Part shown: one piece after another, positions 1,834-38,105 of the stretch
Layout: every line of letters starts with the position of its first letter
How positions within the stretch are numbered: position 1 is the stretch's first letter
Origin: Kiritimatiellia bacterium
GTDB taxonomy: Bacteria; Verrucomicrobiota; Kiritimatiellia; RFP12; UBA1067
Assembly: GCA_017520845.1 (NCBI GenBank)
Contig: JAFXEU010000114.1
Coordinates: 1 to 47,825, forward strand
Length of the DNA stretch: 47,825 bases
Reading direction: 5' to 3'
The notes under the pieces: generated by a model
What the model saw: only the letters and a program-made list of their open reading frames with translations
Databases searched by the model: none
Told to the model about the DNA's origin: nothing
Program-made: the position numbers and the translations under genes

Positions 1834-4800
1834 TTAGTTTTCCGGGCTTATTCCCCAATCGTCCGCCCACCAGTCTACGTCTCCCTGATCAATGCCGAGA
1901 ATGTTGAACGGAGCGGAGAAATTCCAGGAGCGTGTAGTCTTACGCCCTGTATCGGGATTTTCATCCGTCACCTTGAAACTCTTCGTGCAGAAACCGGCGG
2001 TGACGGTTTCCGGGTCAAGCGGAGACATCTCATCCGCCGAGAGAATCAATACGCCGTTATGCTTGAAGCCTGTAATTTCCTTTTGCTTTGCTCCAGTCTC
2101 ATCTTCGCTCCAGATTGAGAACGAACCTGTCACGATACCGGTCGCGCGGGCAAGCTTAATCTGAATATTGCACGGATTTACACTTCCTGTAAGGTCGTAT
2201 ATTTTGCCGTTTTTAACGAGGCTCTTCTTGGGAACAGAGAACTGATCACCGACAAGATTAACCTTGTTCATATTTGGCTCAACCTCAGTCACGATCTGGA
2301 ATCCAGCCGCAACGGCCTCTTCGGGGAATTCGAAAATTTCCGCAGTTGAAGTCTCGAAGGCTCTGTTGAGGTAATAGGACTGGAGATTGATGACAGTATC
2401 ATACCATCCGCCGGCAGGAATAACTTCAATGCCGTAACCTTCTTCATTGTAATAAGTCAATTTGGCGTCGTCGTTATACCAGACGAGCGGAAGCGTTGAA
2501 TCCACAACGAGCTTACCGAGCTCATTCCTGAAAAGACGGAGTTCTCCGCCGAAGCAGCAAGGCGACTTTGCGAAATAAATCGGCACATACATCGCGTAGC
2601 CGTTCGCAGACTCTTCATCCGCTCGGATGCCGCAAGCTTTTACGGACATCGAAGGTTTCGTTTTACCGTCCGCCAACATGCCGGCAACCTTGACATCGCC
2701 CTTGTTGCTGACCTTCAATGTCAAATAACCGTTTCCGGCGGGGATTCCGTCAGAAACATAAACGCCATCCGGAACGAGCGCAACCGTATAATAACCGACA
2801 AAGTTCGTTACCGCATTGAAGTATTCCTGAACCTTGGCGTTGTTGCGATAAAGAGAACCGGTATAATAAATGTTCTCCTGTACGCCCTTAGACTTGGAAT
2901 CAGGCACATTCATCTCCAACTCAACGGAAGCGACTGAATTTGCCCAATCGAGCGAATTCGTGGTAGAGCCCTTCGACACGGCCACTCTGAGCGTATTCGT
3001 GTAAGTGATACCCGCAACCTTCTGCACCAGCGACATCGTCTGGACAGCGTTCGCCTCATCGCTTTCCGCATCGTTCCACCCCGTAGCCTTGAACGTATAA
3101 GCCTTTCCTCCGAGAGCCACTTTAGCGGACAGCGCGGCAGGGGTCTTTGTCGAAACGGTCAATGTAACGGACGCCAGACGCGGGAACCCGTTCGTCAACG
3201 CTGAACCGTCTTCAGAAAGAACACCGTAGAATGTTCCTGTCTCAAGGGCAACGTTTTCCGTCTTAACCCTTGCGACCTTAGCGTTCTTCTTGGCCCAGTC
3301 AGCATAAGTCGATTCAACTGTAGTGCCCGCGCGTGAAACCTCGGTAAGCGTCACGACACACTCGTCAACAGGCATCTGAGCGGGATACTCGTCTGCGCCA
3401 AGCTCGTCTTCGGTGAATCCCTTGAGCTGAACGGAGAATGTCTTGTTGCCCTCCCAATTCGCCACAAGATCGGGAATAAGCTTAATCTCGATCGTCTTCG
3501 CCTTATTGTCGCCGTTCTTCCATTCAAGAACACCGTTCTGAGCGACATAATCAACTCCGGGAACGGCGGAGCCCGCTACAGTACCGTACTTTACGCGGAC
3601 AAGACCATCCTTCGCCGTGCGGTTGACCGTAAGTTTAACGGAAGCTGCATTCTCCTTCGAGGACACGGCGTTCTTGGCGAACCTGATCGCTCCGACATTC
3701 GCGAAAAATCCGGAAAGCGTATATGAACCATCCTGGGGATCCTCCGGCTTCAAATGCTTTACCGTAAGGTAATACTTCGACTTTACGCCAGCGAGAGCGA
3801 TTTTATCAATTGACTTTACGTTCTCTGCGACAACGCCCGCTTCCGCATTGGTTATCGAGAATACGGCGTCACCGGTATTTCCTTCGAGCGCGATCGAATA
3901 ATACTGGCCGTCCTTTGCCGTAAAGGAGAAATTATCTTCGGCGTCCGTCTTCCAAAGCGTGCGAGACTGCTTAAGGGGAGTATTCTTGAACTTCAACGCG
4001 GTTGCGGTTTTGGCGACATCGTCTTTAGGATCGAACGTGTCGGAATAATAAGCCTCAAGGACCGTCGAGTCCGTATCGGCGTCAACCGTTACCGTTTGAG
4101 CGGCAGGCGTAGAAAAGCCTTTGACCGCGGCAAACTTAACCGTATTCTCGCCGCTCAACAGCACGGAAGCGCCGCCGGGATACTTAACGCTCTCTTTGTT
4201 CAGCGACCATGCTCCGTCATCGGTTCCATAGATATTTACCGTCAGAATTCCAAGCTTGGCGCCGTCAGAGGAATATGCAAGCGTGTGAATTTTATAATTC
4301 TGATAATCAAGTCCCTGCCCTTCTGCAACACTTAAACGGATATAATACGTCGCATTCGCCGTCGCCTTGAACGACAACGGCTTATCGGAGGCGGGGTTGA
4401 TATTGCCGGAGGTCCTCGTCGCAGTCTGGCGCGAACCATTTAAAGTGAAAACCTCTGCCTTAAGCGAATTGGACGATACTGGATTCTGCTCCAATGACGC
4501 ACGCAAGGAATAAGTGATGCCCTTTCGTCCCGCGATGACAAATACGTCAGACCAGTCGGTGGGACCGAGCGCGTGCCACCCGTGACCTTCGGGATCGATA
4601 GCTTCAGGAGTGTCCGTCGACAAACCGGGCTTCGCCACTAAACCTGATGCCCCATCAACGGAATCATCGTAAGAGTCCCATTCATCGGGAGATCCGGAGA
4701 CGGCACTCGCGTCTATAAGATTAATAAAACCTGTCGTGTTGGCCGGAGCATCACCAAATGGGTTATCTGACTTCTGACATACGCCCGCATACATAACGCC

Positions 4801-5949
4801 ATCAGCCTCCGCAACGAACGCGCATCTGGGATTTAACGATACACCGTCATGTTCGTTCTGTGCGACGATTTCGCCTTTTGAATCGTAAACGATCAAAAGA
4901 AGATTCGTAGACGCACCTTCCGTCATCGCGACATAACGTTTGCCTTTTTCGGCCTCGAAGCGGAAGAGCGACTCGTCGATAATCTCGTCGAAGAACCCCG
5001 TGCTCATATCAATTTTTCTACCCGCGACGAACGAAGCCTTAAATCCGTTGGCATCGTTTAATTCCGCAAAGGCGTGCTCTTCTATCGCCCTGGAGGGGAG
5101 TTCCTTATAATGCAGCGTGAAATCTCTGCCCTCGTCGCTCGAAAGGCCGGAGACGGCAATAATATGATACCCGGAGGTCAAGGGTGAAACATAAACACCG
5201 GCATCGCTTGAACCGACGGTGTAGTCGGGATTGCCGTATACGGACGGATCTTCGCCGTCTACAGTTTCGGCAAGCCCGGCGGATATAGACATCATAAAAT
5301 CGGACGTTCCTCCCGTTGTGTAGAACGAATACATTTTACCTGCGGTAAGTTTCGCCTTGAAATAATACTCGCCGGCCACCTCGAGCTTTGAAGAATACTG
5401 CTTCTCCGTTTTCGACGGACTGATCGTCACGGGCGACTCCTCTCTCCCCGCCGGAATGACAACGCCCTGCTGGAAGGCGATCGTCACCCGTGCACCTGCC
5501 TTACCTTCGATTTTAATATAGTACAGCCAGCTTTTCGGATCGCTGAATTCGGGATCCTCCTCGTCGATATACCAGTCATCGGAATACATGACCAGTCGAG
5601 TGTTGTAGCCGATCTCGCTTACGGTATCAAACGATGCGCCGGGCGCGAAAATATCTCTGTTGTCCTCGCTTTCCGTGGTATCCCTCGCATAGGCGTCGAC
5701 ATATATATCGTCATCGTCGGTCGAAACCCCTTCGGTCCATACGGTATACGCATTCCCTCGGTTTAATGTCGCCTTAAAATAGTATACTCCGTCACTGGAA
5801 CCCGATTCTTCCGCAATCAGAGTCACCGTCTTCTCGATCTTTGACGATTTAAACGAAATAGACGTAGCCCCGCCTTCATTATTCGGGGCGCCCAGAGTAA
5901 CTGAAGCGCCCATTAATGCGAAAAACGAGAGAAAAGCGATTTTTTTCAT
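1834..5949 (-). CDS. giant secreted beta-rich protein with Calx-beta-like segment
   Basis: A 1371-aa protein with a typical signal peptide (MKKIAFLSFF, Ala/Gly-rich end near residue 20). Residues about 25-750 are beta-rich and contain several segments like bacterial pre-peptidase domains (motifs of the form YYFKA and YYIRLSV). Residues about 760-868 resemble a Calx-beta domain (VKLTVNRT and VPGVDYVAQNG). The last ~320 residues form a module also present at the C-terminus of the neighbouring 1507-aa protein: GYYTVAL, then GNGYLTLKV, AGMLADGK and TGIVTGSFSI. From memory, similar modules recur in large secreted proteins of Verrucomicrobia and Lentisphaerae. No membrane anchor or catalytic motif is seen. 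The gene starts 33 bases after the 1507-aa gene and ends at the 1795-1829 terminator. It is probably a surface or adhesive protein. Confidence 0.8.
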   Translation of the reverse strand: MKKIAFLSFFALMGASVTLGAPNNEGGATSISFKSSKIEKTVTLIAEESGSSDGVYYFKATLNRGNAYTVWTEGVSTDDDDIYVDAYARDTTESEDNRDIFAPGASFDTVSEIGYNTRLVMYSDDWYIDEEDPEFSDPKSWLYYIKIEGKAGARVTIAFQQGVVIPAGREESPVTISPSKTEKQYSSKLEVAGEYYFKAKLTAGKMYSFYTTGGTSDFMMSISAGLAETVDGEDPSVYGNPDYTVGSSDAGVYVSPLTSGYHIIAVSGLSSDEGRDFTLHYKELPSRAIEEHAFAELNDANGFKASFVAGRKIDMSTGFFDEIIDESLFRFEAEKGKRYVAMTEGASTNLLLIVYDSKGEIVAQNEHDGVSLNPRCAFVAEADGVMYAGVCQKSDNPFGDAPANTTGFINLIDASAVSGSPDEWDSYDDSVDGASGLVAKPGLSTDTPEAIDPEGHGWHALGPTDWSDVFVIAGRKGITYSLRASLEQNPVSSNSLKAEVFTLNGSRQTATRTSGNINPASDKPLSFKATANATYYIRLSVAEGQGLDYQNYKIHTLAYSSDGAKLGILTVNIYGTDDGAWSLNKESVKYPGGASVLLSGENTVKFAAVKGFSTPAAQTVTVDADTDSTVLEAYYSDTFDPKDDVAKTATALKFKNTPLKQSRTLWKTDAEDNFSFTAKDGQYYSIALEGNTGDAVFSITNAEAGVVAENVKSIDKIALAGVKSKYYLTVKHLKPEDPQDGSYTLSGFFANVGAIRFAKNAVSSKENAASVKLTVNRTAKDGLVRVKYGTVAGSAVPGVDYVAQNGVLEWKNGDNKAKTIEIKLIPDLVANWEGNKTFSVQLKGFTEDELGADEYPAQMPVDECVVTLTEVSRAGTTVESTYADWAKKNAKVARVKTENVALETGTFYGVLSEDGSALTNGFPRLASVTLTVSTKTPAALSAKVALGGKAYTFKATGWNDAESDEANAVQTMSLVQKVAGITYTNTLRVAVSKGSTTNSLDWANSVASVELEMNVPDSKSKGVQENIYYTGSLYRNNAKVQEYFNAVTNFVGYYTVALVPDGVYVSDGIPAGNGYLTLKVSNKGDVKVAGMLADGKTKPSMSVKACGIRADEESANGYAMYVPIYFAKSPCCFGGELRLFRNELGKLVVDSTLPLVWYNDDAKLTYYNEEGYGIEVIPAGGWYDTVINLQSYYLNRAFETSTAEIFEFPEEAVAAGFQIVTEVEPNMNKVNLVGDQFSVPKKSLVKNGKIYDLTGSVNPCNIQIKLARATGIVTGSFSIWSEDETGAKQKEITGFKHNGVLILSADEMSPLDPETVTAGFCTKSFKVTDENPDTGRKTTRSWNFSAPFNILGIDQGDVDWWADDWGISPEN

Positions 5950-5982: not shown

Positions 5983-8900
5983 TTATTCGACCGTGGTTAT
6001 TTCAGCAGATGAGCCGACATTGACCTTTACGGATTTACCCGACTCGGTCTTGAAGGTGTCCGCATAGTAATATGCTCCGCTCATAAACGGCAATGTAACA
6101 TCAACGACAGTATCGGTACATCCGCAACCAGGGCCCCAACCGATCAAAACGACTCCTTTGTACTTTGCCGAATAAGTTTTCATGTTGCCGTCTTCATCTT
6201 GATACGGAACCTTAACCGAGCCGGAAACGATTCCGGTCGAGCGGGAAATTGAAATCGTCGCTCTATAATTGTTTTCACCCGAGATGGCGATTTTCGAATC
6301 GAAACTGTTTTTATCGAGACTGACGACCAATTCACGATCAAATACGATATTGGGGGTCAGTCCTGAATAATTGCTGTCCCACGCCTGCAGCAGGCTGTCG
6401 CCGGAATCGTAAATTCCGCCGTATACATCGAAGAGAATGTCATAGTACGAATTCAGCGCCTTCTCATAGTGGGACCAGCGGAAATCTGCAGCGTCTTTAA
6501 ATACAGCCTGACAGTTGCCGGATTCCTCTTTGTTCTTCAAGGCGTCGGAATTGATTTTCACCACGCCCGCGAGAATATCCTTCGACGAGGTGCGGAAAAC
6601 AGGCAACCTACCCCAATTGCATTCATCATCAGCAACCTTCTGCAGCGTCGAACTTCCGGAAACGGCAGTTCCGTTAGGCAGCATACCCGCCCATGTAACC
6701 TTTCCGGTGTTAAAGGCCGAAGACGACGTCATCTTCAGCGTGAGGTACCCATGCCCCTTAGGAGCGATCTCTGGACGCTCTGCGCCTTCAACAACGCCCT
6801 CATTTCGCAACGCAACGGTATAGTAGCCCTTCCAGGCATCAGCCTTATTGGTCTTAGACCAGATATTTCCGTCGCATTGGGCTTTTAAAAGCTCGTTATC
6901 GGGATTCATCATCAAAACATCAAACGATCCGTCTACATTGGCTTCAAGAACAAAGCCATATCCCTTCGTTCTTGAAGTCAGTATCGCAAAAAAGCTTCTG
7001 TACGATCCGTCTTCAATCTCTACGTCAGCCCAAGAGGACGAGGAGAACGAAATCGATCCATCGGCACAAAGCAATTTGGCCGACGTCTTACCGGTAGAAG
7101 ACATAGTAAGCTGAAGAGTTCCGACCAGCGTTGATCCGGTCATGTTGAAAACGGGAATATCCTTAAACGTTCTCGCCTTTGCGAAAACGCTGGGAACGGA
7201 CTCTCCTGTTTCATCGTCGACCGCCGGCGCAAAAGGATCGACTACCTCTATCGTCAACGCGAGCGTAAGCCCGGCCTTGCGCTTCGATCCGCTGACCTGC
7301 TCGACCTGATAAACAGGATAATAAACGCCCGCTTTCGCCTTGGCTACGCCGGATACAAGAAGCGCATTAGCCTCGGAGTCCCAAGAAACCTTAAGCCCGG
7401 AAGGCAGCGTTCCGGAGAGCTTCTTGAAAGTCATCCTGGTGAATTCCGCTCCGTCGGCGACAGCTACAGGATAACTGTTGCTGGTCGCGACATAGCGGTG
7501 GAGTTTCGCGTATGCCGTTTCGGTCGCGAAGGCGGGTGCGTCGGCCGCTACGCCGACGACGCGAACGTTATTCGACGCCGAAAGAATTTTCAAGCCGTCT
7601 TTAGGAGAGTGGAACGAAACGGTCGCGGTCTTACCCGCCGGAACGCCCGAAACTACCACCGACTTATCCTCGAACCTGTGATTGCCCCACTGAAGTTCGC
7701 CGTCGGACACATCGCCCGAAATCTCAACGCCGGCGAGACTTGATTTAACTCCGACGGATACTGGGCCGTCGGAAGCCTGCAAACGTTTGGCGTAAAGCGT
7801 GGCACTCTCGCCCTCACGAACATATACCGTGAGTTTCTTCGAGAAGAAGGGTTCCGCGCCGACGAACGCCGCCTTGCCGGCCGACTGAACATCGTTGTCT
7901 TTAACCGTAAGAACAAACGTATCCTGAACAGCTTCGGCCAAACCGTCCTTGACGGTAAACTTGAGCGCTACGTCGCCGGCTCCGTCAAAACGCTCATCTT
8001 CAAATACCGTAACCGTGATGTTAGTCGTACCTGCGACACCCTCCTTCCAGGTAATGGTCACGGGTTCAAATGCAAATCTCTTTTCTCCGTCACTGTTGTA
8101 AAAGGTTGTATTCTCTTCATCAAGAACAACTTCAATTGTCACGTCTCCGGATTTTCCTTCCGTGCGGGCAAGAGCGACAAAATAATCTCCAACAGCCTCG
8201 TTCGTCGAGGCGACCGCAGTAACGAATCCGACTTTTCCGGGCTTCCAGATCTGATAGCGCAATGTCGCACCGCTAAGAGGAACAGAGACGTCTCCATCAA
8301 CGAGGGCGGTAAAGAATTTGCAGTACGGATCATCTTCGTCAAGAGGCTTAAGCGCAGCCTTGTTCAAATTAGCGACGTGAACCCCGGTAAATTTGTAAAC
8401 GGTATCCTTCGCGATTCTCACTACTACATGATCCAACCCTTCGCCGGGTTCTGCATCGGCATACTTCTCCTGCGGAACAAGCACAACATCACCGGATACC
8501 TTAAACGGATGGAAATTCGCAGCCTTAGTACTTTCGGCCGCAAAAGCTTCAGAGGTAATGTCAACTCCGGAAACCTCTACATAATAATCACCGGGCTCGG
8601 TAAACGTGTATTCAAGCGTTACGCCGGACGAGAGCTTTCCGGTTACACCGTCATCGACGTACTTTTTGCCGCCGTCCTCATCGATCGTACAGAATTTAAC
8701 CGCGACATCCGCATCGCTCGTGCCTTCGACGGAAATTTTCTGAAGAGCATTGCCTCCCACGCCGTTAAGCTTGAAAACATCCTTGAAGTCGCAATGTGAT
8801 ATCTCGCCGAACGCCTCGCCGCCGTTGGCGCTGAACGCGATAGCGCCGTCGCCGGGATAATCGTTTTCAATATCATCAAAATGAGTTCCCTCCGCGTCGG

Positions 8901-10506
8901 CAATTTCCAGCATTTCATCAAACCGCTTGAGGATATCGGCGCATTTCTCTCTTGCATCGGTATACGGACTTTTAGCGGCAAAGCGGGTCATACGGGCGGC
9001 GACGCTTCCGTCTTTGCGAAGAAGAACAAAAATCGGCACACCTGTACGGTTCGGGTTCGTATCGTCAGGACGGTGGAAACCGCCTTTAGACGTATCGGTC
9101 TGAACAAGAATTCTGTTGCGCTCAAGTACCGCCGACGCCTCCTCGTCGGAAACTCCCTTGCGCGTCAAATATCCGAGACCGCTGCGCACCATCGGCGCAA
9201 GCAACGACTCATCCGCGCCGCCGAGAGAGTAATCGTAAAAGTTATAGTCGGGAAGCTCGTACGCGAGCGTCGTCGAATACCCTTTACGTGAAAGCAAAGT
9301 CGGGCTCTCGCATTCAACGCTCGCGGAAGTGAAATTAGGCACATCAACAACGACAAGCGCAACATTGTTGCTCTTGGCCCAGACATCGACAAGCGACTTG
9401 CCCTTATCGTTCAGAACATTGAGGAAATTACGCTCGGTGTTGGCGCAATCATGACACCAAAGCGATCCCTGAACCGCAACAAGAGTATACGCCTCTCCAT
9501 CGGCCTGGGCGACGCGTTGAGTCGCCACTTCATAATCCATGGTCCATTCGCCCCATGCTAACTCCGGTACGACATCAGTCCTCCCAAGATCCTGAGCGGG
9601 GACGGCTGCCGATCTCTCGCCTATCCAAAGAGGATTCGCCGCCGAATTGGGCAAATCAACATAAGTTATGCTGTTCGTACCGACAACCGTGCCGTCGGCA
9701 TCCTTTACAACGAGAAAAGCCTTATCGCCGTCCTTCGCGGCTTCTGAATCAAAAACATTCGAAATATCAACTTCAATGGTCTGATTTGTCTGGCCTGCAG
9801 TCCAATCCACGTTCTCGGTCCTGACAAGCGTACCTTCGGGAGAGACGACATCAATCAGATTATTGGTGACGATATCGGCAACTCCTGCCTCGCGCGCAAG
9901 AGAAACAATCACGCCGGATGTCGAACTTTCCGCCTCCAAACGATGTCCTTCCGTTTCTTCAAGCGCAAGTTCTCCGCCCGAATAATAGGTTGGAGGAACA
10001 TAGGAGCCGAGATATTTATCTACGGAGCCCATAAACTGCTCGCCGACGGTACCTGTTTTCACGGGCATCAACCCGGTTTTTCCGGAAAACTTCTCTAAAA
10101 TCGTCTTGCTTTCCCGTTTCCAATAAACTGCAATATACGGGAATTTGCCGCTGAGATTTTTGGCGAAACTTTTAGCTTTCCTGCTATCCTCCGTACCCGT
10201 ACCGTAGGCGAAAACGAATAAATACTTGCGCTCATTCATCCATGCTTTGGCGCTCGATTGAGTCATAGCCGCTTCGAGTTTTTTACAAATAGCACACCCG
10301 GGATTCGCCCAAAAAACGACAAGCGGAATATTTTCGGTGTCCGCCTTGGCTTTCATCGCCAAATAATTTGAATTCCATTCGCCAGGCTTAAAATCAATCG
10401 ACGTGGAATATTCAAGACCGCCGTCGGCAACCGCCCCTAAAAGAGAAGTCGCGCACATGACTACCGCCGCTCCGGCGGCGAACAACTTAACGATTGTCGT
10501 TTTCAT
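5983..10506 (-). CDS. giant secreted protein with two thioredoxin-like CxxC segments and Calx-beta-like segment
   Basis: A 1507-aa protein with a signal peptide (hydrophobic residues 5-24, cleavage probably after LLGA). Residues 58-165 look like a thioredoxin fold with an active-site-like CAIC at 71-74, preceded by VVFWANPG. Residues 338-480 look like a second one with CHDC at 351-354. A pre-peptidase-like segment lies near residues 570-650, a Calx-beta-like segment near 779-872 (ITVTVFEDE, KDND) and an Ig-like segment near 1000-1120. The C-terminal ~280 residues match the end of the downstream 1371-aa protein. The start ATG overlaps the stop of the upstream lipoprotein gene by four bases (ATGA) and has an AAAGGAGG Shine-Dalgarno. 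Possible roles are disulfide handling at the cell surface or a redox-linked adhesin; neither is shown. Confidence 0.8.
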   Translation of the reverse strand: MKTTIVKLFAAGAAVVMCATSLLGAVADGGLEYSTSIDFKPGEWNSNYLAMKAKADTENIPLVVFWANPGCAICKKLEAAMTQSSAKAWMNERKYLFVFAYGTGTEDSRKAKSFAKNLSGKFPYIAVYWKRESKTILEKFSGKTGLMPVKTGTVGEQFMGSVDKYLGSYVPPTYYSGGELALEETEGHRLEAESSTSGVIVSLAREAGVADIVTNNLIDVVSPEGTLVRTENVDWTAGQTNQTIEVDISNVFDSEAAKDGDKAFLVVKDADGTVVGTNSITYVDLPNSAANPLWIGERSAAVPAQDLGRTDVVPELAWGEWTMDYEVATQRVAQADGEAYTLVAVQGSLWCHDCANTERNFLNVLNDKGKSLVDVWAKSNNVALVVVDVPNFTSASVECESPTLLSRKGYSTTLAYELPDYNFYDYSLGGADESLLAPMVRSGLGYLTRKGVSDEEASAVLERNRILVQTDTSKGGFHRPDDTNPNRTGVPIFVLLRKDGSVAARMTRFAAKSPYTDAREKCADILKRFDEMLEIADAEGTHFDDIENDYPGDGAIAFSANGGEAFGEISHCDFKDVFKLNGVGGNALQKISVEGTSDADVAVKFCTIDEDGGKKYVDDGVTGKLSSGVTLEYTFTEPGDYYVEVSGVDITSEAFAAESTKAANFHPFKVSGDVVLVPQEKYADAEPGEGLDHVVVRIAKDTVYKFTGVHVANLNKAALKPLDEDDPYCKFFTALVDGDVSVPLSGATLRYQIWKPGKVGFVTAVASTNEAVGDYFVALARTEGKSGDVTIEVVLDEENTTFYNSDGEKRFAFEPVTITWKEGVAGTTNITVTVFEDERFDGAGDVALKFTVKDGLAEAVQDTFVLTVKDNDVQSAGKAAFVGAEPFFSKKLTVYVREGESATLYAKRLQASDGPVSVGVKSSLAGVEISGDVSDGELQWGNHRFEDKSVVVSGVPAGKTATVSFHSPKDGLKILSASNNVRVVGVAADAPAFATETAYAKLHRYVATSNSYPVAVADGAEFTRMTFKKLSGTLPSGLKVSWDSEANALLVSGVAKAKAGVYYPVYQVEQVSGSKRKAGLTLALTIEVVDPFAPAVDDETGESVPSVFAKARTFKDIPVFNMTGSTLVGTLQLTMSSTGKTSAKLLCADGSISFSSSSWADVEIEDGSYRSFFAILTSRTKGYGFVLEANVDGSFDVLMMNPDNELLKAQCDGNIWSKTNKADAWKGYYTVALRNEGVVEGAERPEIAPKGHGYLTLKMTSSSAFNTGKVTWAGMLPNGTAVSGSSTLQKVADDECNWGRLPVFRTSSKDILAGVVKINSDALKNKEESGNCQAVFKDAADFRWSHYEKALNSYYDILFDVYGGIYDSGDSLLQAWDSNYSGLTPNIVFDRELVVSLDKNSFDSKIAISGENNYRATISISRSTGIVSGSVKVPYQDEDGNMKTYSAKYKGVVLIGWGPGCGCTDTVVDVTLPFMSGAYYYADTFKTESGKSVKVNVGSSAEITTVE

Positions 10507-30079: not shown

Positions 30080-30616
30080 CTATTCGTGGAAGTAGAAGAA
30101 GTTGTATGTACCGGAAACGCGCTGTATCCAGAGCGGCCTTGTCGCGACTGACTCCGTCGGATCCCACCCGAAGGCGAGTTCAACAGCGTTATTCGACGCT
30201 CCATTGAGACGCTGAACACAAAGATAGCCATCGTACATAAAGCGGTGGTGCATATTTGTACTCCCGTTCACCGTTTCAACATATTCAACACGGCGGCCCA
30301 TGCGGTCGTACTTCATCGTGATGTTCGTCGCGCCGCACGACCACAGGACGGGGCGGTTCTCGCCGTTGTAGGTAACGCTCCTGACGCCAGTGGAGGTCTT
30401 TACGAGCGTCTGGTTTCCGTCCAGGTCGAACTGAGGTGCGAACTCTTCCTGCGGCGCGTTGGGGACAACGCGCCCTACCCTTGAACGGCGTTTCGCGAAG
30501 CGGTAGGGCGGCTTGTCCCCAAGCCGCCGCACCAAGGCGGGAAATTCCCCGCCTCGGCTGCGCAAGTCGGACCTATCGAAACGGTAAGCGCACGCGCTAC
30601 CCTTTCGAATCATCAT
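30080..30616 (-). pseudogene. displaced RHS core fragment
   Basis: A 178-aa frame whose residues about 46-178 are nearly identical to part of the C-terminal core of the large RHS protein (GRVVPNAPQEEFAPQF to NFFYFH). The DNA match covers 30085-30479 against about 32155-32567 at over 90 percent by eye. It stops exactly where the GGGGACAGTCCCC element begins, so it lacks the end of the core and any tip. The first ~45 residues translate the REP-like palindromes at 30453-30553. The ATG overlaps the stop of a small upstream ORF (ATGA) and has AAAGGAG before it, so it may still be translated. It is most simply a remnant of a duplicated or displaced RHS tip. Confidence 0.7.
30453..30553. repeat. cluster of three GC-rich palindromes (REPIN-like)
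   Basis: Palindrome 1, 30453-30474: GGCGCGTTG, loop GGGA, CAACGCGCC. Palindrome 2, 30507-30528: GGCGGCTTG, loop TCCC, CAAGCCGCC. The two are inverted relative to each other, each flanked on the inside by CTACC or GGTAG. Palindrome 3, 30536-30553: GGCGGG, 6-base loop, CCCGCC. Two inverted REP units with a short spacer are the arrangement called a REPIN. No RAYT transposase is in the window. Confidence 0.7.
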
Positions 30617-30711
30617 TCGCTCCTTTCACTGCTTGCGTCCCTTCTTTTGCCGTCCCGCCGCTTGCGAACAACAATTACCATGGTAACCATCAATATGCGT
30701 CTAAACGTCAT
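30613..30711 (-). CDS. 32-aa Arg-rich small ORF coupled to both neighbours
   Basis: A small frame starting MTFRRILMVTMVIVVRKRRD with a short hydrophobic stretch and a basic tail. Its ATG overlaps the stop of the 156-aa membrane protein (ATGA) and is preceded by AAGGAG; its stop overlaps the start of the RHS fragment (ATGA). This phasing supports translation, but the product may only serve to carry ribosomes through, or be a remnant. No family is recognised. Confidence 0.4.
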   Translation of the reverse strand: MTFRRILMVTMVIVVRKRRDGKRRDASSERSE

Positions 30712-31178
30712 GGTCTTTCTCCTTCTGGGGCGTCACCGTCACCCGTTGTTGTATATTGGACGCATCTCTCACACAGAAACTTTGATGCTACATTATCTAG
30801 CATTCTGAAAGGTTCATAATCAGTCAAGCCTATTCTCCAACCATACTTTGAAATATTTTCGTAGAGATAAATATAATTTCGCCCGTCATAATACAACAAA
30901 TAATTGCAATCGCAAATTGTAATCATAATCGCTAACGGTGCATCTTTTATATCGACATCTGAGCTAAATATAGCAACACCATTATTTTCAGTTAAAGGAT
31001 GCATCCAAGTATGGAATTGTGTTTCTTGGAATTGGCTACGCATTTCATCTATAATAATCTGGCATTTACGTGGCAGGAGAAAATAGTATAAGAGAAGAAG
31101 ATATGTCACAACAACCGCGCAAACAATGTTAACAGTAGTTGATATTATCAAAAATCGCCTACCTATGCAACATTTCAT
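30708..31178 (-). CDS. small membrane-anchored protein linked to RHS gene, candidate immunity protein
   Basis: A 156-aa protein of unknown function. Residues 9-35 form one transmembrane helix (ISTTVNIVCAVVVTYLLLLYYF); the rest, probably outside the membrane, has about four cysteines and a Tyr-rich central part (NYLLYYDGRNYIYLY). The base composition is clearly more AT-rich than most of the window. Its ATG shares one base with the stop of the 130-aa protein (TAATG) and its TGA overlaps the next small ORF. Small genes directly after RHS genes often encode immunity to the RHS tip; position is the only support for that here. Confidence 0.65.
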   Translation of the reverse strand: MKCCIGRRFLIISTTVNIVCAVVVTYLLLLYYFLLPRKCQIIIDEMRSQFQETQFHTWMHPLTENNGVAIFSSDVDIKDAPLAIMITICDCNYLLYYDGRNYIYLYENISKYGWRIGLTDYEPFRMLDNVASKFLCERCVQYTTTGDGDAPEGERP

Positions 31179-31570
31179 TACTTGTCTCCATTGCTTGACT
31201 TCAACCGGTATTGAGAAACGATTGAGGCTTCCCGCCCTCTGTAAAGAAAGTTCGTCACTATGCCATTTCCATCATACTGATGCGAAAGCAAAAAATCTAA
31301 GTTGCCAATGCTAACAGAAAAGGACCTGGTATCTTCATTTTTAGAAACTATTATTGGACGAGAACCTGCATTGACATAACACACTTGTTCTGCTGGTCTA
31401 GAAATAAGTGTGCAAATGTCATTCTCAAAAACAATTTCACCTGAACTTAGATGTTTAACAGAACTATGACCCGCATTAAATATAAATCTCGCGGCAATGA
31501 TACCTATCAATAGAATTGCAAAAAAGCAATTCAAAGATACAGAAATTATCGCATAGGATTTTCGACTCAT
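31178..31570 (-). CDS. small membrane-anchored protein directly after RHS gene, candidate immunity protein
   Basis: A 130-aa protein of unknown function. Residues 7-31 are one transmembrane helix, and the remaining ~100 residues have beta-like stretches (RSFSVSIGNLDFLLSHQYDG in the middle). It follows the RHS stop by 9 bases and is preceded by AGGAGGTAGT, a good ribosome site. The plan (anchor plus small soluble domain) resembles the next gene, though sequence similarity between them is weak by eye. AT-rich composition suggests acquisition together with the RHS tip. Confidence 0.65.
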   Translation of the reverse strand: MSRKSYAIISVSLNCFFAILLIGIIAARFIFNAGHSSVKHLSSGEIVFENDICTLISRPAEQVCYVNAGSRPIIVSKNEDTRSFSVSIGNLDFLLSHQYDGNGIVTNFLYRGREASIVSQYRLKSSNGDK

Positions 31571-31579
31571 AACTACCTC

Positions 31580-34500
31580 CTATTCATGCCGAGCATCCAT
31601 ATCTTGTAGCATTCTACTTAGCTTCTGGTAAGCCTTCTCTAGTTCCCCTATCCTTTTCAGAACACGAGGATTATTCAAATCACTACATAACAGTGATTGT
31701 ATTTCCCGATTGATTTCACCCATCTTTGCAATTATCATTGCTTTACTCATAGGTTCAACTGCCGATGCCATCTCAGAGCCTGGACTTGGTGCGACATAAC
31801 CTAAAAGACTCACAAGCCAATCCCAAAATCCTTGCCCTAATATATCATTGTAAAAAGGATAATTATTAACAAATACAAAGAGTGAAAGTGCGAATGTTTC
31901 ATTTTTTGGGTCGCGAACAGTCCACCTGGAAATGGAAGGAATATAATGCCTGTAATTATAGTACACGAGACCCAGCACGTCATCGGCGTATTCACTGCTG
32001 AACCTGAATGGGTTGACCTCGGCGACATTAAAGGCCGTGAAGGCTGTGTTGGTGGTGACAGCGGTCACTACACCGAAGGGTGCGAACTCGTAGTGCGCGG
32101 GAACGCTGCGCGCCGACTGGTAGGAAACGAGCTCCGAGACGTTCTTGTTGCCGTCGTGGAAGTAGAAGAAGTTGTAAGTCCCCGAGACGCGCTGCATCCA
32201 AAGCGGGCGGGTGGCGACTGGCTCCGTCGGATCCCATCCGAAGGCGAGGTCAACGGCGTTGTTGGCGGAAGCATTGAGCCGCTGGACGCAGAGGTAGCCG
32301 TCGTAAACGAAGCGGTGGTGGGCGTTGGTGACGGTCACCGAGGACGGCGACCCTCCCACCGTCTCAAGGTATTCCACGCGCCGCCCCATACGGTCGTACT
32401 TCATCACGATGTTCGTCGTGCCGCACGACCAAGAGACGGGGCGGTTCTCGCCGTTGTAGGCGACGCTCCAGACGCCAGTGGAGGTCTTAACGAGCGTCTG
32501 GTTTCCGTCCAGGTCGAACTGAGGAGCAAACTCTTCCTGCGGCGCGTTGGGGACAACGCGCCCTACCAACGTGTACTGGTTGAGGCTATTGGCGACGTAT
32601 GTGCGGTTGGTGCCGAGGTCGAGAGACGAGAGGCGGTTGCCGATGTCATCGTACTGGTAGGCGTATTCGTTCAGCGTCGCGTTCTTCACGGCATTGGTCA
32701 ACTCGTTGCGGTCGTTGTAGCCGTAGGCGTCGGTGCGCGTCTCAGTCATGCGCGTACCGGAACGGGATATTTCCGTGCGGCGTCCGATGGCATCGTTGAC
32801 ATAGTCGTACTGCGAGACGACGCTGCCAAATGCCGTGTTCTTAACTTGCGTCAGGAGGTCGCGCGTCGGCTCATACGTCCAGTCCGTCCGCCCCGCCGTG
32901 CCGACGGTCAGCGAAGACTTGAGGTCGGTCCCCGGCAGGTAGCCGTACGTGTACCACGCCCCGGCGAACATCACGCGCTTGATGCGGGCGGTGTCGGGCT
33001 CGTACTCGATGATGTTCTTTCTTGAATTGTCGAGCGTGTAGCCGAGGTCGCGCCCGAATGCGTCGCGGTGTCTTGTCTTGCTCTTGGAGTAAAGCCCAAT
33101 CGTCGCCTCGCCAACGACTTCGCCGAAGTCGTCGTATGTGGTTGTGGTCGTTCCAACGGCATCGGTCGCGGAAATCTGACGTCCCAAAGCGTCATAGACG
33201 AACGTGATGGACGGAGTGCCGTCGGAGTAGGTTGTATTCGTCAGATTATTCCAGCCGTCGTATGAGTATGTCGTAACGACCCCACGGGCCCATGTACGCG
33301 TCGCGAGATTTCCGCTATCTGTATAGGTGTAAGCCGGGCCTTTACCGTCTGCATAAATTTTAGAAAGGAGTAGCCCTGTCGCATCGTCATAATTCCATAC
33401 CGTCACATCGCCGTTCGATGAATGTTCCGCACGATACGTTGTCATATTAGTCATGACATTGTAATCATTGTAAGCATAAGAAACCGGATAAGTTCCCCCG
33501 CCTTCGTATATCTTGTTGCCGCGAAGATCATACTCGTACACTGTCGCAATTCCCAATGCATTGGTAATCGCGGCGAGATTTCCTATCTCATCATAAGCAT
33601 AGCGCGTCGTGCTTCCCGCCGCATCAGTAACGCTGGCGAGACGCCCAAGTGAATCGTATTCGTTTGTTGTGGCGTTGCCGCGACCGTCGACTTGTATTTT
33701 AGCACGACGATACGCATCGTACACGATTGAATTTGTAACAGCCGAATGAGAGACCGATAAAATCTCAACGCCATCAACACTTTTCGTTAAAGCGATATTA
33801 CTCGCCGTAGACACTGCGGAATATGTCATTCGCGTCGAGGAAGCAGTATCTAAACTCGTCCACATTTCGCTTTTATTGCCGCGAACATCAAACGATATAT
33901 TACGCGATTCATCTGAAAGCGAGAGTCCTGATATTTGGGACATATTCGTCGTCACGAGCGGAGCGATAGACGAATCCGAAGAAGTAACCGTGCTTGATGA
34001 ATTGCGCCATACATTACCACCATATAAAATATACCCTGTCGCCGCAGCCCGTATCTGGCTTTTGCCGTCCGCCGTTCTTTCAACGCTTACAACATCGCCC
34101 CACACATCGTATGTAAGCAATTCGCGGGGCTTTCCAGTCTGAAGCTTTTCTATAAGTTGACCCTTATCGTTATATGTCATTTCTGTTATAAGAATCGAGC
34201 CGTTCGCACCTGGACGCTCTTCCAAGACTTTTTCACCGAAAGCGTTGGTGTATGTCTTTATCCATCGCGCGCCATCGGGAGAAAGATAATTAACTTTCTC
34301 CCACCTGAGACCATCGTCTGTGACGCCATAAGTCCAATATTCATTCGCATCAGATGTCCCCGTAATGGAGTGAATCGAACCGTCGGGATTAAGTGTAGTT
34401 GTTCTGACAGCTCCGGACGGATAAACTATTGTCGTAACTCTGCCATCGTCCGAATAATTATAGGTCGTAGTACGGTTTTGAGCGTCCGTCTCGCGAATTA

Positions 34501-37500
34501 AACACGACTGTTCATCATATTGACGCGTTCGTGTTCGCTCTTCCAATCCATCAGAGGTTTCTTTCTCGCAGATTACACGACCTTCTGCATCATAAATATA
34601 TTCCGTTCTTACAGAACCAAGAGGACTGTTACGCGTTGTGTACAGAATCTCTTTAGCTTCATTAAAAACATTCGTAGTTAAAATCCCGTCTTCCGAGCGA
34701 ATCCACAAAGGCCCCGTACATATCCAATCTGAAGACGACTCCTTACCGTCTGATTTCACGGAATAAATATTTTTGTGCGCCGCGTTATACCGGTTTGTAG
34801 TCCAATCCGTTTCATGCCATGCGTTGTTTATATACGCATAATTAACGACTGACACCGCGTTGCCTGAAACATCATAGGACATGACGGTTCTTGTTGACTT
34901 TCCATTGACGAGAGAGAAGCCCTCATCCTCAGACCAGACACCGTTGTCTATCGTTTGAATCCATGAATAATCAACAGGATCATATTCTGCGTATTCTATT
35001 TTTGATGCCCGTCCTGTTTCATCAACTAAGAGCGTCATCCTTCCGAAATTATCAAATTCATTAAATGAAGTTCGCGATGCAACCCCGTCTTTACGGATGT
35101 TTACAACCCTATTCGTCAAATAAATCGTTTCTTCATCTTCAACGATTATCCCATTTTCTTTTACAATCCTGTGAGCCACGCGCCGGTCAACAACTCCGCC
35201 GACAGGAGGAAGTTCTGGATAGCTCAATACGGTTTCACGAACAATTCCTCCATTAACTATCGAAAGTTCATTTGTCACACGATTCCATTCGTCATACTTA
35301 TACGCTGTTTCATATCCGCGCGAATCCGTTTTAGAAGCTACTGTACCAGAAGTATTGCGCTGAATTAAAAACTGTCTTTTACCGCCAATTACTTTATCTG
35401 TCTCCATGATTGAGCGGTTTGAAACATCAAGAACAGAAGTTTCGAGGCGCTCGACTTCGCCTGCATTATTCAACGTTTTATAAACCACGTTCCAAACATC
35501 ATTTGTCAGATCGTAAGCGATTTCCTTTTTTCGCGTTTTAACGGCTTCAGTTCCAGGCGCTTTCGTAAAAATCCAATCCTGGGCAGCAGAGTCATACCGC
35601 CATTCTGTAACAAACTCCAATTGCGCAGAGCGTCTTTCCGTAAGTCTAAAAAGACCGCTGCCGTCACCTGAAAACACAAATGTTTTAGCGACAATTCCAG
35701 ACCGGGACGACCATTGCAGCTGATAAGAGAAACTACTTAACGGTTCAACATCCATCCTGCCGTCAGACAATGAAACAATAGATTTTATCGCACCCGAAGC
35801 ATCATATTCAATATCAATGCCCAAATCCTCGACACTAATCCACATCCCGTCCGGAGGGCGGAGCGCTTTAACCAGGCCTGTTTGCGCATCGTATTTTATT
35901 TCGGTACGATTTTCAAGGACCTCTACCAAATCCCCATCCAACCTGTAAACGCCTCGTGAAAGCCCTGACGACATATTGACAGGTTTCCCGTCTTTATATT
36001 CAGTTCCCTCGCCAAATGAATTTAAGATTATCACATCAAGAGGACGACCGTCGTCAACAACGGTTTCACCTTTCACGAACACGGCTCTGCGGGTCATCGG
36101 ATGATCATAAACAAGCGCGCGTGAAGTCCATAAACGCGACACAGGATAAGTTTCTTTAATCGCCACTCGTCCAGTCGGAAGGTTTGGGATCCATGGCGTA
36201 CGTCCGAATGTTTGAGAAAAAGAAACACTGCCTAACTCCGTTGTTGTCCCCTCTATACAGCAGCAATCGTCCTCCGCCTCTTCCTTTTCTGGCAAGAGTG
36301 TAAACACCGCAGACTCACTATCTATTAGAATACCTTCTTCATATAGGCCGAACGTTACCGTAGAACTACGCTCGACATCCCAATAATCCGAGGCTTTATC
36401 TACACTTGCGGTGTCATTTGAAACAATAAGTCCGCCATCGGAACTTATACATTTGATTTCATAATCCAATCCCTCAACGCCTTCGCCAAGTTGTGTTGCA
36501 ACAGTGCATTCTTCGCCCGGCTTCTTTCTCGAGAATTTCACGTCATTAGGAGAAACCTGAATTCTAACATCATTTGTAGCCGGCACATACTCGGCAAATT
36601 TCAGAACCGAAAAATGTGCAGGGCCGCCGACGCTGGATACATTGAGTGAAATCGGATAGGCGACATTCGCCTTAAATCTTCCATACGCAATTTCCCCATC
36701 TCCAGAACCGTTTAACCATTCCGCAGATGCTACCATATCTCCTACCATCAGCTCGGCATGATCGTCGGCGGAAATTTGAAATGCGTACAACCCGCTTTTT
36801 CTCGGTATAAATCTACCGCCCGAGGCAACGACCTCACAGACATTGCTGTGACCAGGCCCAGAAGCCTCAAATTCGGGAATCGAGGAAGTTGTAGTAGTTC
36901 CGCCAGGTTCGGAAAGCCCAAGAATCGAAAAATCCCCAAATGGTTCTGTAATAGAAACCGTAACCGCAAATTCCCCGTCCAAACTGTAGAAAACTTCTTC
37001 ATCGGAAGATGGGTTAGATAGTGCCGAAACGGAATCGTCGGCAGAAAAAGCCTGCGCCTGAGACGATAAGTTAACAGACGAGTTAATATTAGAAGCCAAA
37101 TCACGATCTCTACTGGACTTCAATAAAATAGACGAGGCTTCCAACGGAGTACCGTCTAATGAAAAAAGAAACAGATATTCCGCATCAGGTTGAGTTGAAA
37201 CGGGAATATCACCGCCTTCAGCCTCGTGCAAAATCCGCATATCCTCCGACAGAACGAAATAGCCTATCGCTGAAATTTCTTGAGTGGCTGCATCAACAAC
37301 CAGCAAATCTTCACACTGATCGTTAAGCGTAACAAAAACGCCACCTGAAACATTTGCAAATTCCAATTCATGGCTTGTCGTCTCTGACACTGCTGGAGGA
37401 TAAACGGCAGAATCGACTGCAATAAAATCAATCGCAAATGCCGCAAATGCAAAAGAAAGGACGATTAAGCACAACCGACCGGTAAAGCGCCTGATTTTTT

Positions 37501-37507
37501 GAGACAT
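31580..37507 (-). CDS. giant RHS/YD-repeat protein with signal peptide and PA14-like segment
   Basis: A 1975-aa exported protein. A signal peptide covers about residues 1-25 (CLIVLSFAFAAFA). Residues 229-305 resemble a PA14-type beta domain (SGLYAFQISADDHAELMVGD). From about residue 560 on there are many YD repeats (YDSLGRL, YDEIGNL, YDALGRQ), which in RHS proteins form a shell around the C-terminal tip. The core ends with YYNYRHYIPSISRWTVRDP and FVFVNNYPFYNDILGQ, followed by an 83-residue tip that is hydrophobic at first and then coiled-coil-like; no known toxin motif is seen. The promoter at 37573-37601 and AAAGGA before the ATG support the start. DNA for the core (about 31960-33330) is much more GC-rich than the regions on both sides. 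Three small frames follow closely. Confidence 0.88.
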   Translation of the reverse strand: MSQKIRRFTGRLCLIVLSFAFAAFAIDFIAVDSAVYPPAVSETTSHELEFANVSGGVFVTLNDQCEDLLVVDAATQEISAIGYFVLSEDMRILHEAEGGDIPVSTQPDAEYLFLFSLDGTPLEASSILLKSSRDRDLASNINSSVNLSSQAQAFSADDSVSALSNPSSDEEVFYSLDGEFAVTVSITEPFGDFSILGLSEPGGTTTTSSIPEFEASGPGHSNVCEVVASGGRFIPRKSGLYAFQISADDHAELMVGDMVASAEWLNGSGDGEIAYGRFKANVAYPISLNVSSVGGPAHFSVLKFAEYVPATNDVRIQVSPNDVKFSRKKPGEECTVATQLGEGVEGLDYEIKCISSDGGLIVSNDTASVDKASDYWDVERSSTVTFGLYEEGILIDSESAVFTLLPEKEEAEDDCCCIEGTTTELGSVSFSQTFGRTPWIPNLPTGRVAIKETYPVSRLWTSRALVYDHPMTRRAVFVKGETVVDDGRPLDVIILNSFGEGTEYKDGKPVNMSSGLSRGVYRLDGDLVEVLENRTEIKYDAQTGLVKALRPPDGMWISVEDLGIDIEYDASGAIKSIVSLSDGRMDVEPLSSFSYQLQWSSRSGIVAKTFVFSGDGSGLFRLTERRSAQLEFVTEWRYDSAAQDWIFTKAPGTEAVKTRKKEIAYDLTNDVWNVVYKTLNNAGEVERLETSVLDVSNRSIMETDKVIGGKRQFLIQRNTSGTVASKTDSRGYETAYKYDEWNRVTNELSIVNGGIVRETVLSYPELPPVGGVVDRRVAHRIVKENGIIVEDEETIYLTNRVVNIRKDGVASRTSFNEFDNFGRMTLLVDETGRASKIEYAEYDPVDYSWIQTIDNGVWSEDEGFSLVNGKSTRTVMSYDVSGNAVSVVNYAYINNAWHETDWTTNRYNAAHKNIYSVKSDGKESSSDWICTGPLWIRSEDGILTTNVFNEAKEILYTTRNSPLGSVRTEYIYDAEGRVICEKETSDGLEERTRTRQYDEQSCLIRETDAQNRTTTYNYSDDGRVTTIVYPSGAVRTTTLNPDGSIHSITGTSDANEYWTYGVTDDGLRWEKVNYLSPDGARWIKTYTNAFGEKVLEERPGANGSILITEMTYNDKGQLIEKLQTGKPRELLTYDVWGDVVSVERTADGKSQIRAAATGYILYGGNVWRNSSSTVTSSDSSIAPLVTTNMSQISGLSLSDESRNISFDVRGNKSEMWTSLDTASSTRMTYSAVSTASNIALTKSVDGVEILSVSHSAVTNSIVYDAYRRAKIQVDGRGNATTNEYDSLGRLASVTDAAGSTTRYAYDEIGNLAAITNALGIATVYEYDLRGNKIYEGGGTYPVSYAYNDYNVMTNMTTYRAEHSSNGDVTVWNYDDATGLLLSKIYADGKGPAYTYTDSGNLATRTWARGVVTTYSYDGWNNLTNTTYSDGTPSITFVYDALGRQISATDAVGTTTTTYDDFGEVVGEATIGLYSKSKTRHRDAFGRDLGYTLDNSRKNIIEYEPDTARIKRVMFAGAWYTYGYLPGTDLKSSLTVGTAGRTDWTYEPTRDLLTQVKNTAFGSVVSQYDYVNDAIGRRTEISRSGTRMTETRTDAYGYNDRNELTNAVKNATLNEYAYQYDDIGNRLSSLDLGTNRTYVANSLNQYTLVGRVVPNAPQEEFAPQFDLDGNQTLVKTSTGVWSVAYNGENRPVSWSCGTTNIVMKYDRMGRRVEYLETVGGSPSSVTVTNAHHRFVYDGYLCVQRLNASANNAVDLAFGWDPTEPVATRPLWMQRVSGTYNFFYFHDGNKNVSELVSYQSARSVPAHYEFAPFGVVTAVTTNTAFTAFNVAEVNPFRFSSEYADDVLGLVYYNYRHYIPSISRWTVRDPKNETFALSLFVFVNNYPFYNDILGQGFWDWLVSLLGYVAPSPGSEMASAVEPMSKAMIIAKMGEINREIQSLLCSDLNNPRVLKRIGELEKAYQKLSRMLQDMDARHE
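32541..32562. repeat. REP-like palindrome inside the RHS coding sequence
   Basis: GGCGCGTTG, loop GGGA, CAACGCGCC, identical to palindrome 1 at 30453-30474 and followed by CTACC. It is translated in frame as GRVVPNAP between YD-repeat segments, without disrupting the gene. Confidence 0.7.
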
Positions 37508-37572
37508 AATAGCATCCTTTCTTTTGATTTGAAATTGCCAGATAAGGAAATAGGTTCACTAATTCCAAGGCG

Positions 37573-37601
37573 ATTATACCACTTCGTACTCAGAAACACA
37601 A
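37573..37601 (-). promoter_or_regulatory. promoter of the RHS cassette
   Basis: Minus strand TTGTGT (37596-37601) and TATAAT (37573-37578) are 17 bases apart. The start point near 37566 leaves a ~58-nt leader with AAAGGA at 37515-37520. It begins right after the terminator of the ribosomal protein operon. Confidence 0.7.
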
Positions 37602-37610
37602 GCTACAAAT

Positions 37611-37639
37611 AAAAAGACCGCCGCTAAAAAGCGACGGTC
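37611..37639 (-). terminator. terminator of the ribosomal protein operon
   Basis: On the minus strand GACCGTCGCT pairs with AGCGGCGGTC (10 bp, one G-T pair) around a TTTT loop and is followed by TTTTTATTT. It lies 28 bases after rplO, so the operon ends there. Confidence 0.85.
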
Positions 37640-37667
37640 ATTTTCAGTACCCTTAATAAGGCTCAGC

Positions 37668-38105
37668 TTAGCCGACCGTACCGCCGGCGGCCTCGATCTT
37701 GGCCTTGGCGGCCGCGGAGCAAGGAACCTTGACGGTGAACTTCTTGGTGAGTTCGCCGTTGCCGAGAACCTTGATTTTCGGGCGCTTGTTGTCGGAGAAT
37801 CCGGCCTTGGCGAGAGTCTCGACGGTGATTTCGGCACCGGCTTCGAACTTCTTCTCGAGATCGGAAACGTTGACGCCGAGAGCCTTGGCGTTGAACGCCG
37901 CATTGTTGAAGCCACGCTTGGGAATACGGCGGACGAGGGGCATCTGGCCGCCTTCGAAGCCGAGTTTCTGCTTGTGACCCTTGCGGGCGCCCTGACCCTT
38001 GTGGCCGCGCGTGGACGTCTTGCCCATGCCCGAACCGCAACCGCGACCGACGCGTTTACGACGCTCGCGGGCTCCGGGGGTATTCGTGAGATTGCTCAAT
38101 TCCAT
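37668..38105 (-). CDS. rplO: 50S ribosomal protein L15
   Basis: A 145-aa protein with the typical L15 start: LSNLTNTPGARERRKRVGRG and the glycine-rich GSGMGKTSTRGHKGQGAR segment that threads into the 23S rRNA core, then FEGGQMPLVRRIPKRGF. It is the last gene of the operon; in most bacteria rpmD would precede it and secY would follow, but neither is here. AAAGGAG precedes the ATG, 20 bases after rpsE. Confidence 0.95.
   Translation of the reverse strand: MELSNLTNTPGARERRKRVGRGCGSGMGKTSTRGHKGQGARKGHKQKLGFEGGQMPLVRRIPKRGFNNAAFNAKALGVNVSDLEKKFEAGAEITVETLAKAGFSDNKRPKIKVLGNGELTKKFTVKVPCSAAAKAKIEAAGGTVG

Follow-up and report, generated by a model that had tools for sequence, protein, structure and literature searches.

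A candidate polymorphic-toxin locus with a putatively exported RHS protein and two membrane-anchored partners in a Kiritimatiellae genome

Polymorphic toxins of the Rhs and CDI types are known together with orphan toxin/immunity modules (PMC3150448, PMC3482391), and nearly all the immunity proteins known when they were surveyed were cytoplasmic (PMC3482391). One Rhs protein, Tse5, is a pore-forming toxin (PMC10684867). Disulfides have been described in periplasm-acting effectors and in their immunity proteins (PMC5792426). In addition, GTAG-type REP elements, intragenic copies included, have been reported with Verrucomicrobia among their hosts, in a paper whose main text leaves rhs unmentioned (PMC3733652). 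The locus described here is of a known kind, an RHS polymorphic toxin, for which we infer toxicity, immunity, cleavage and delivery. What is new is that the RHS protein is predicted to be exported, that its putative partners are membrane-anchored, and that tip and partners may form a three-gene module.

The window, i.e., the whole stretch of 47,825 nucleotides that was analysed, comes from the MAG of a rumen bacterium of the Kiritimatiellae (G000; a 2.74-Mb assembly in 116 contigs, 92% complete) that holds one RHS gene of this locus type plus a displaced fragment. The relatives named below are likewise Kiritimatiellae MAGs, from rumen or gut. An earlier note on this DNA had described a chain of five frames, and we find it at every coordinate given, all on the minus strand. 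The features are as follows.

37616..37639, minus strand: terminator-like hairpin behind ribosomal-protein genes
31580-37507, minus strand: RHS gene, 1975 aa, with a signal-like N-terminus (MSQKIRRFTGRLCLIVLSFAFAAFA), YD repeats and RHS-associated core
31583..31831, minus strand: tip, 83 aa, after the DILGQ core end; a short aromatic hydrophobic segment, then a predicted helical hairpin
RHS/gene A gap, 9 bases, minus strand: holds GAGG (AATAGGAGGTAGTTATG)
31178-31570, minus strand: gene A, 130 aa, N-terminal transmembrane helix; probable immunity protein, quickly diverging
30708-31178, minus strand: gene B, 156 aa, N-terminal transmembrane helix and juxtamembrane helix (the part conserved in L112); probable second partner
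30665..31843, minus strand: AT-rich module of tip, A and B, GC 0.36-0.42, against ~0.58 in the flanking RHS core DNA
30613..30711, minus strand: 32-aa frame with a strong Shine-Dalgarno (AGAAGGAG) and a hydrophobic start (MTFRRILMVTMVIVV); GC-rich junction DNA from about 30665
30080..30616, minus strand: 178-aa frame, holding a tipless displaced RHS core fragment at 30084-30479

Genes A and B meet at TAATG, B and the 32-aa frame at ATGA, and the 32-aa and 178-aa frames at another ATGA. The coupling joints claimed in the note are thus present, but the last two are probably incidental, since it is junction/repeat DNA that encodes the 32-aa frame and the opening ~42 residues of the 178-aa frame. 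The 32-aa frame is probably the truncated start of a third anchored gene. Because a terminator-like hairpin follows the ribosomal-protein genes, the RHS gene is probably a transcription unit of its own. It lies directly behind the last gene (L15-like) of the ribosomal-protein operon (window 37507-38105), a position at which secY is the usual follower. At its other end, the region stops before a GH95 gene. Two more giant frames, of 1507 and 1371 aa, occupy window positions 5983-10506 and 1834-5949 (minus strand), with a weak thioredoxin-like match and Calx-beta/PPC domains.

The assignment of the large protein to the RHS family is firm. Its RHS repeats score above curated cut-offs (PF05593, E=1e-36; also TIGR01643), as does the RHS-associated core (TIGR03696, 40.1 bits vs a cut-off of 32.5), and a PDB sequence search finds homology of the shell to the Tse5 structure 8cp6 (E=1.8e-26). 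The PDB matches cover the shell only and not the tip, for which no sequence relation to Tse5-CT was found. The core end reads DILGQ, a departure from the DPxGL of the autocleavage motif; the Asp of RDP and that of DILG are both present. The PA14-like domain proposed in the note corresponds to a PA14/GLEYA-like region at ~231-290, and it recurs at roughly the same position in relatives L048 and L057, but the match lies below the Pfam cut-off in all three (E=0.0018/0.0047 in the window). Judged by eye, the N-terminus suggests export by a Sec-type signal; localisation calls in this work follow a hydropathy rule, not a trained predictor. No PAAR or similar N-terminal delivery domain was found by Pfam, which detects only the RHS repeats and the sub-threshold PA14/GLEYA region. 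The T6SS sheath protein VipB (PF05943) has no match in G000 at 92% completeness, and the E. coli control was positive.

RHS genes are common in the Kiritimatiellae family of the window, with this core in 69 of 115 family genomes. In 60 fetched loci, a core-end profile picked out 96 core-bearing frames, and in 83 of these the tip was closed and usable. As partner we took a gene on the same strand whose start falls between -60 and +200 bases of the tip stop (n=78 tips), and called it anchored or exported if its N-terminus was strongly hydrophobic (signal, lipobox or membrane helix); both the cut-off and the gene-picking rule are our own. On this basis, 65 of the 78 tips (83%) are followed by an exported or anchored gene, and among 155 control neighbours from these loci the number is 46 (30%; p=2.6e-15, related loci not being independent). 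The earlier note had made its reading depend in one half on whether the small genes are linked to RHS genes elsewhere, and these percentages say that small anchored genes are. This hydropathy-based result makes the family unusual, with partners predominantly exported rather than cytoplasmic, since the immunity proteins covered by PMC3482391 are nearly all of the latter type.

The 82 tips fall into 61 clusters and the 78 partners into 69. Each of the eight partner clusters with several members has its match in a tip cluster, which accounts for all 10 similar pairs (hypergeometric ~3e-22, relatedness ignored). Thus, a comparison of tips and small genes, which the note had proposed between strains, supports co-inheritance of the two families among relatives. 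Pfam matches among 86 tips include Tae4, PLA2G12, Zn-PLC, peptidases M76 and M10, and PG-binding domains, all of them families with established envelope or extracellular activities; DUF4329 and the other matches are uninformative. Cysteine makes up 3.4% of tips and 3.2% of partners against 1.1% of shells, an approximately threefold enrichment that is as expected for the periplasm. Two recurrent proteins stand beside RHS cassettes in L049, L050, L051, L052 and L064: an N-terminally anchored protein with an MKRKIVVA-like start, and one that combines a PPEGVAFGE region at its N-terminus with a membrane part resembling CcdA/DsbD, possibly linked to the Cys-rich tips. Tandem arrays of core, tip and small gene are found in L044, L045, L050 and L052.

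The tip of the window has a different look from most of these. It was called unrecognised from the start, and indeed Pfam and NCBIfam give no match above cut-off for the tip, for A or for B. At 83 aa, it is short compared with the 140-250 aa of most other tips, has a single Cys and belongs to no detectable enzyme or toxin family. In a single-sequence AF2 model of the core end plus tip, the C-terminal two thirds of the tip form a predicted helical hairpin with pLDDT ~91-93 over most of its length; the model overall is mediocre (pLDDT 63.5), with low confidence outside the hairpin. B modelled alone is poor (pLDDT 52.8). Only one RHS-linked relative of the tip was found in the sampled class (L108/L112), in another genus. 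The weak tip matches in G068, G103 and G271, like the tip-profile matches outside the window in general, are phage proteins, coiled coils or non-genes, and none stands behind an RHS core. The tip profile had no matches among viral contigs. Single-sequence searches returned no credible relative of A or B in the sampled family or class; a weak match of A (G169) and two of B (G042, G288) fall in unrelated frames.

The locus L112 consists of an orphan core, a 99-aa tip and two anchored genes, in the gene order of the window. Its core is ~31% identical to the window RHS protein over the core end. The two tips align with a score of 92, where the best of 82 other tips reaches 38, and B scores 72 with its counterpart, against 49 for the best among other partners in either direction. 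The similarity of B is confined to residues 5-71, which cover the membrane helix and the juxtamembrane part, and the remainder has diverged. For A, the positional counterpart scores 37, which is inside the background, so only the position of A is matched and there is no detectable homology. L112 shows the same GC step as the window, with an AT-rich module between GC-rich flanks. This one relative supports the view that tip, A and B may constitute an exchangeable three-gene module that moves between RHS cores. The tip exchange that the note had suspected is therefore upheld in part: a homologous tip stands on a different core in another genus, with two anchored genes behind it. The paired anchored genes do not serve as a general sign of exchange, since two in series follow only 10 of 53 tips. 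In view of this minority arrangement, we regard the pair as a property of the tip+A+B module.

The same observations bear on three other readings. The tip could be no toxin at all but a helical element by which the RHS shell docks onto A and B, as an adaptor for surface display or secretion. Its short, coiled-coil-like form and lack of a catalytic signature would suit such a role, as would the co-conservation of tip and B, the latter only in its membrane and juxtamembrane part. However, the module sits in the toxin slot of the family and, as other cassettes do, moves from one core type to another, and the extreme turnover of tips across the family is unlike that of a structural adaptor. We consider docking unlikely, and the tip-display role that the note had offered for the anchored proteins has found no positive support. 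Alternatively, tip and B could act jointly as a weapon, with B aiding tip insertion or serving as a co-toxin, and A alone would confer immunity. This would fit a B that is conserved with the tip while A diverges, and the equal gene order in two genera, but the anchor of B lies in the membrane of the producer itself, with no evident export beyond it, and two loci only are concerned; such a weapon is very improbable. Finally, B could be an orphan immunity gene stacked from an older, lost cassette, leaving A as the only cognate partner. According to PMC5361080, arrays of such genes are known in other systems, and an RHS remnant does lie directly behind B. Since L112 has homologues of both the tip and B in identical order, we give stacking hardly any weight. 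We thus continue to favor an envelope-acting tip that is neutralised by membrane partners.

The displaced core behind the module (30084-30479) has 81% DNA identity to the RHS gene, and the 178-aa frame shares 85% identity with RHS residues 1645-1787; only the last ~136 residues of this frame are RHS-derived, the first ~42 being junction/repeat DNA. It ends about 105 aa before the core end and lacks a tip. Its 5' edge coincides exactly with a GTAG-type REP element, a 26-bp palindrome (GTAGGGCGCGTTGTCCCCAACGCGCC) that is also found in frame inside the RHS gene:

32541..32566, minus strand: GTAG-type REP in frame in the RHS gene, read as the peptide VGRVVPNA
30453..30478, minus strand: GTAG-type REP at the 5' breakpoint of the displaced core
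30503..30528, plus strand: opposite-oriented REP copy (GTAGGGCGGCTTGTCCCCAAGCCGCC), ~25 bases upstream of the breakpoint

Given the missing tip, the early end and the start at a REP, the displaced core is no loaded spare or usable orphan toxin. The note had seen in it a sign of tip exchange, and this idea finds no support in a fragment that is tipless, REP-bounded debris. Orphan core+tip cassettes are present in L044, L045 and L050; downstream of the window RHS gene there is only the tipless fragment.

The REP pattern occurs in 54 of 112 family genomes, and the reversed-pattern control gave 0 in every row. The elements have a GTAG end, a palindromic stem-loop with compensating stem variants, and interspersed copies. 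The RHS frames of the fetched loci contain 22 copies, every one read in the sense frame as VGRxxPxAP or a close variant of it; the other reading frames are also open and are used in other genes. The in-frame copies occupy several shell sites (the window, L045, L051, L052, L054, L056, L091 and others), and palindromes are seen in non-RHS genes too (L139, L143, L164). We dropped the idea that the palindrome is a new type of coding-gene repeat, as intragenic GTAG REPs, including those of Verrucomicrobia, are already in PMC3733652. L066 and L069 hold look-alikes of the Y1_Tnp transposase at the motif level. A second repeat type, with peptides like LCASAPLRE and LRDSASPRE, occupies the same hot spot of the RHS core, between LNQY and DADGN/DLDGN, in L100, L101, L102 and L048. 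In L100, a displaced core starts exactly at this second repeat type, making a second case of a repeat-bounded displaced core. Two such cases are suggestive of rearrangement at repeats without being proof. In the window, the position of the breakpoint is observed, and the remnant would be debris of an earlier rearrangement at the REP.

The REP insertions, the debris behind B and a tip among the shortest could also mean that the locus has decayed, the tip being a truncated remnant and the chain non-functional. Against this, the RHS frame is intact over 1975 codons, A and B are intact and coupled, and the related tip of similar length (99 aa) ends independently. Decay is the most improbable of the explanations that we have weighed.

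We therefore return to the reading of an exported-RHS polymorphic-toxin locus with an envelope-acting tip, membrane partners that neutralise it, a tip+A+B module and REP-derived debris, and we put the probability of this whole account at roughly 0.6. The exported-RHS type would be widespread in one Kiritimatiellae family. The RHS protein would leave the cytoplasm by its predicted Sec-type signal, and, by analogy with Rhs, TcC and Tse5, the shell may enclose the C-terminal tip and cut it off at the DxLG core end. The tip would act on the envelope of a competitor, most likely on the membrane, given that it looks helical and non-enzymatic. A and B, as inner-membrane proteins with predicted periplasmic domains, would neutralise it, A presumably as a fast-evolving specific immunity protein and B as a second partner or immunity protein. 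Tip, A and B would travel between cores as one AT-rich module, and the remnant behind them would have been left by the earlier rearrangement. The short tip with its one Cys and no family, the single RHS-linked relative, the A counterpart that is not detectably homologous, the DILGQ motif and the lack of a VipB match speak against this account. A bolder version, in which the hairpin tip cooperates with the membrane helix that is conserved in B, A is the fast-evolving immunity and the module is loaded by recombination at translated REPs in the RHS gene, would be a new type of membrane-acting RHS weapon; we think it quite unlikely.

These findings point to a gut and rumen bacterial family whose exported RHS shells carry envelope-acting Cys-rich tips and have exported partners to match, in contrast to the mostly cytoplasmic immunity proteins described so far. 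In the tip+A+B module there is a small, testable candidate for membrane action. The REP at the breakpoint suggests one concrete route of cassette rearrangement.

Compared with known systems, the repeats resemble the GTAG REPs of PMC3733652 in their GTAG end, palindrome and insertion within genes, and a Y1_Tnp (RAYT-like) transposase gene lies between RHS cassettes in the related locus L045 (9623-10471, minus strand; PF01797, E=1.8e-7). They differ in recurring here in a single frame within RHS genes and in lying at a cassette breakpoint. Periplasm-acting amidase and phospholipase effectors such as Tae4, whose immunity proteins are periplasmic too (PMC5792426 for the disulfides), have likenesses in the Tae4-like and phospholipase tips of family-mates and in the Cys-rich tips and partners, but here such tips are fused to exported RHS shells, and the window tip is none of these enzymes. 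With Tse5 (PMC10684867), the locus shares Rhs shell homology and a putative membrane-directed tip; unlike it, Tse5-CT is ~149 aa long (residues 1169-1317) and is delivered by a T6SS. The Rhs/CDI toxins and their orphan modules (PMC3150448, PMC3482391) are alike in the YD-repeat shell, RHS-associated core, variable tip and co-inherited adjacent small gene, and, in relatives of the window locus, in tandem displaced cores with other tips. Differences lie in the predicted Sec-type signal, a tipless displaced core and no T6SS sheath gene found, and in partners that are mostly exported or anchored. Since an orphan core+tip cassette is common but not obligatory, the window locus keeps its place among the RHS polymorphic toxins.
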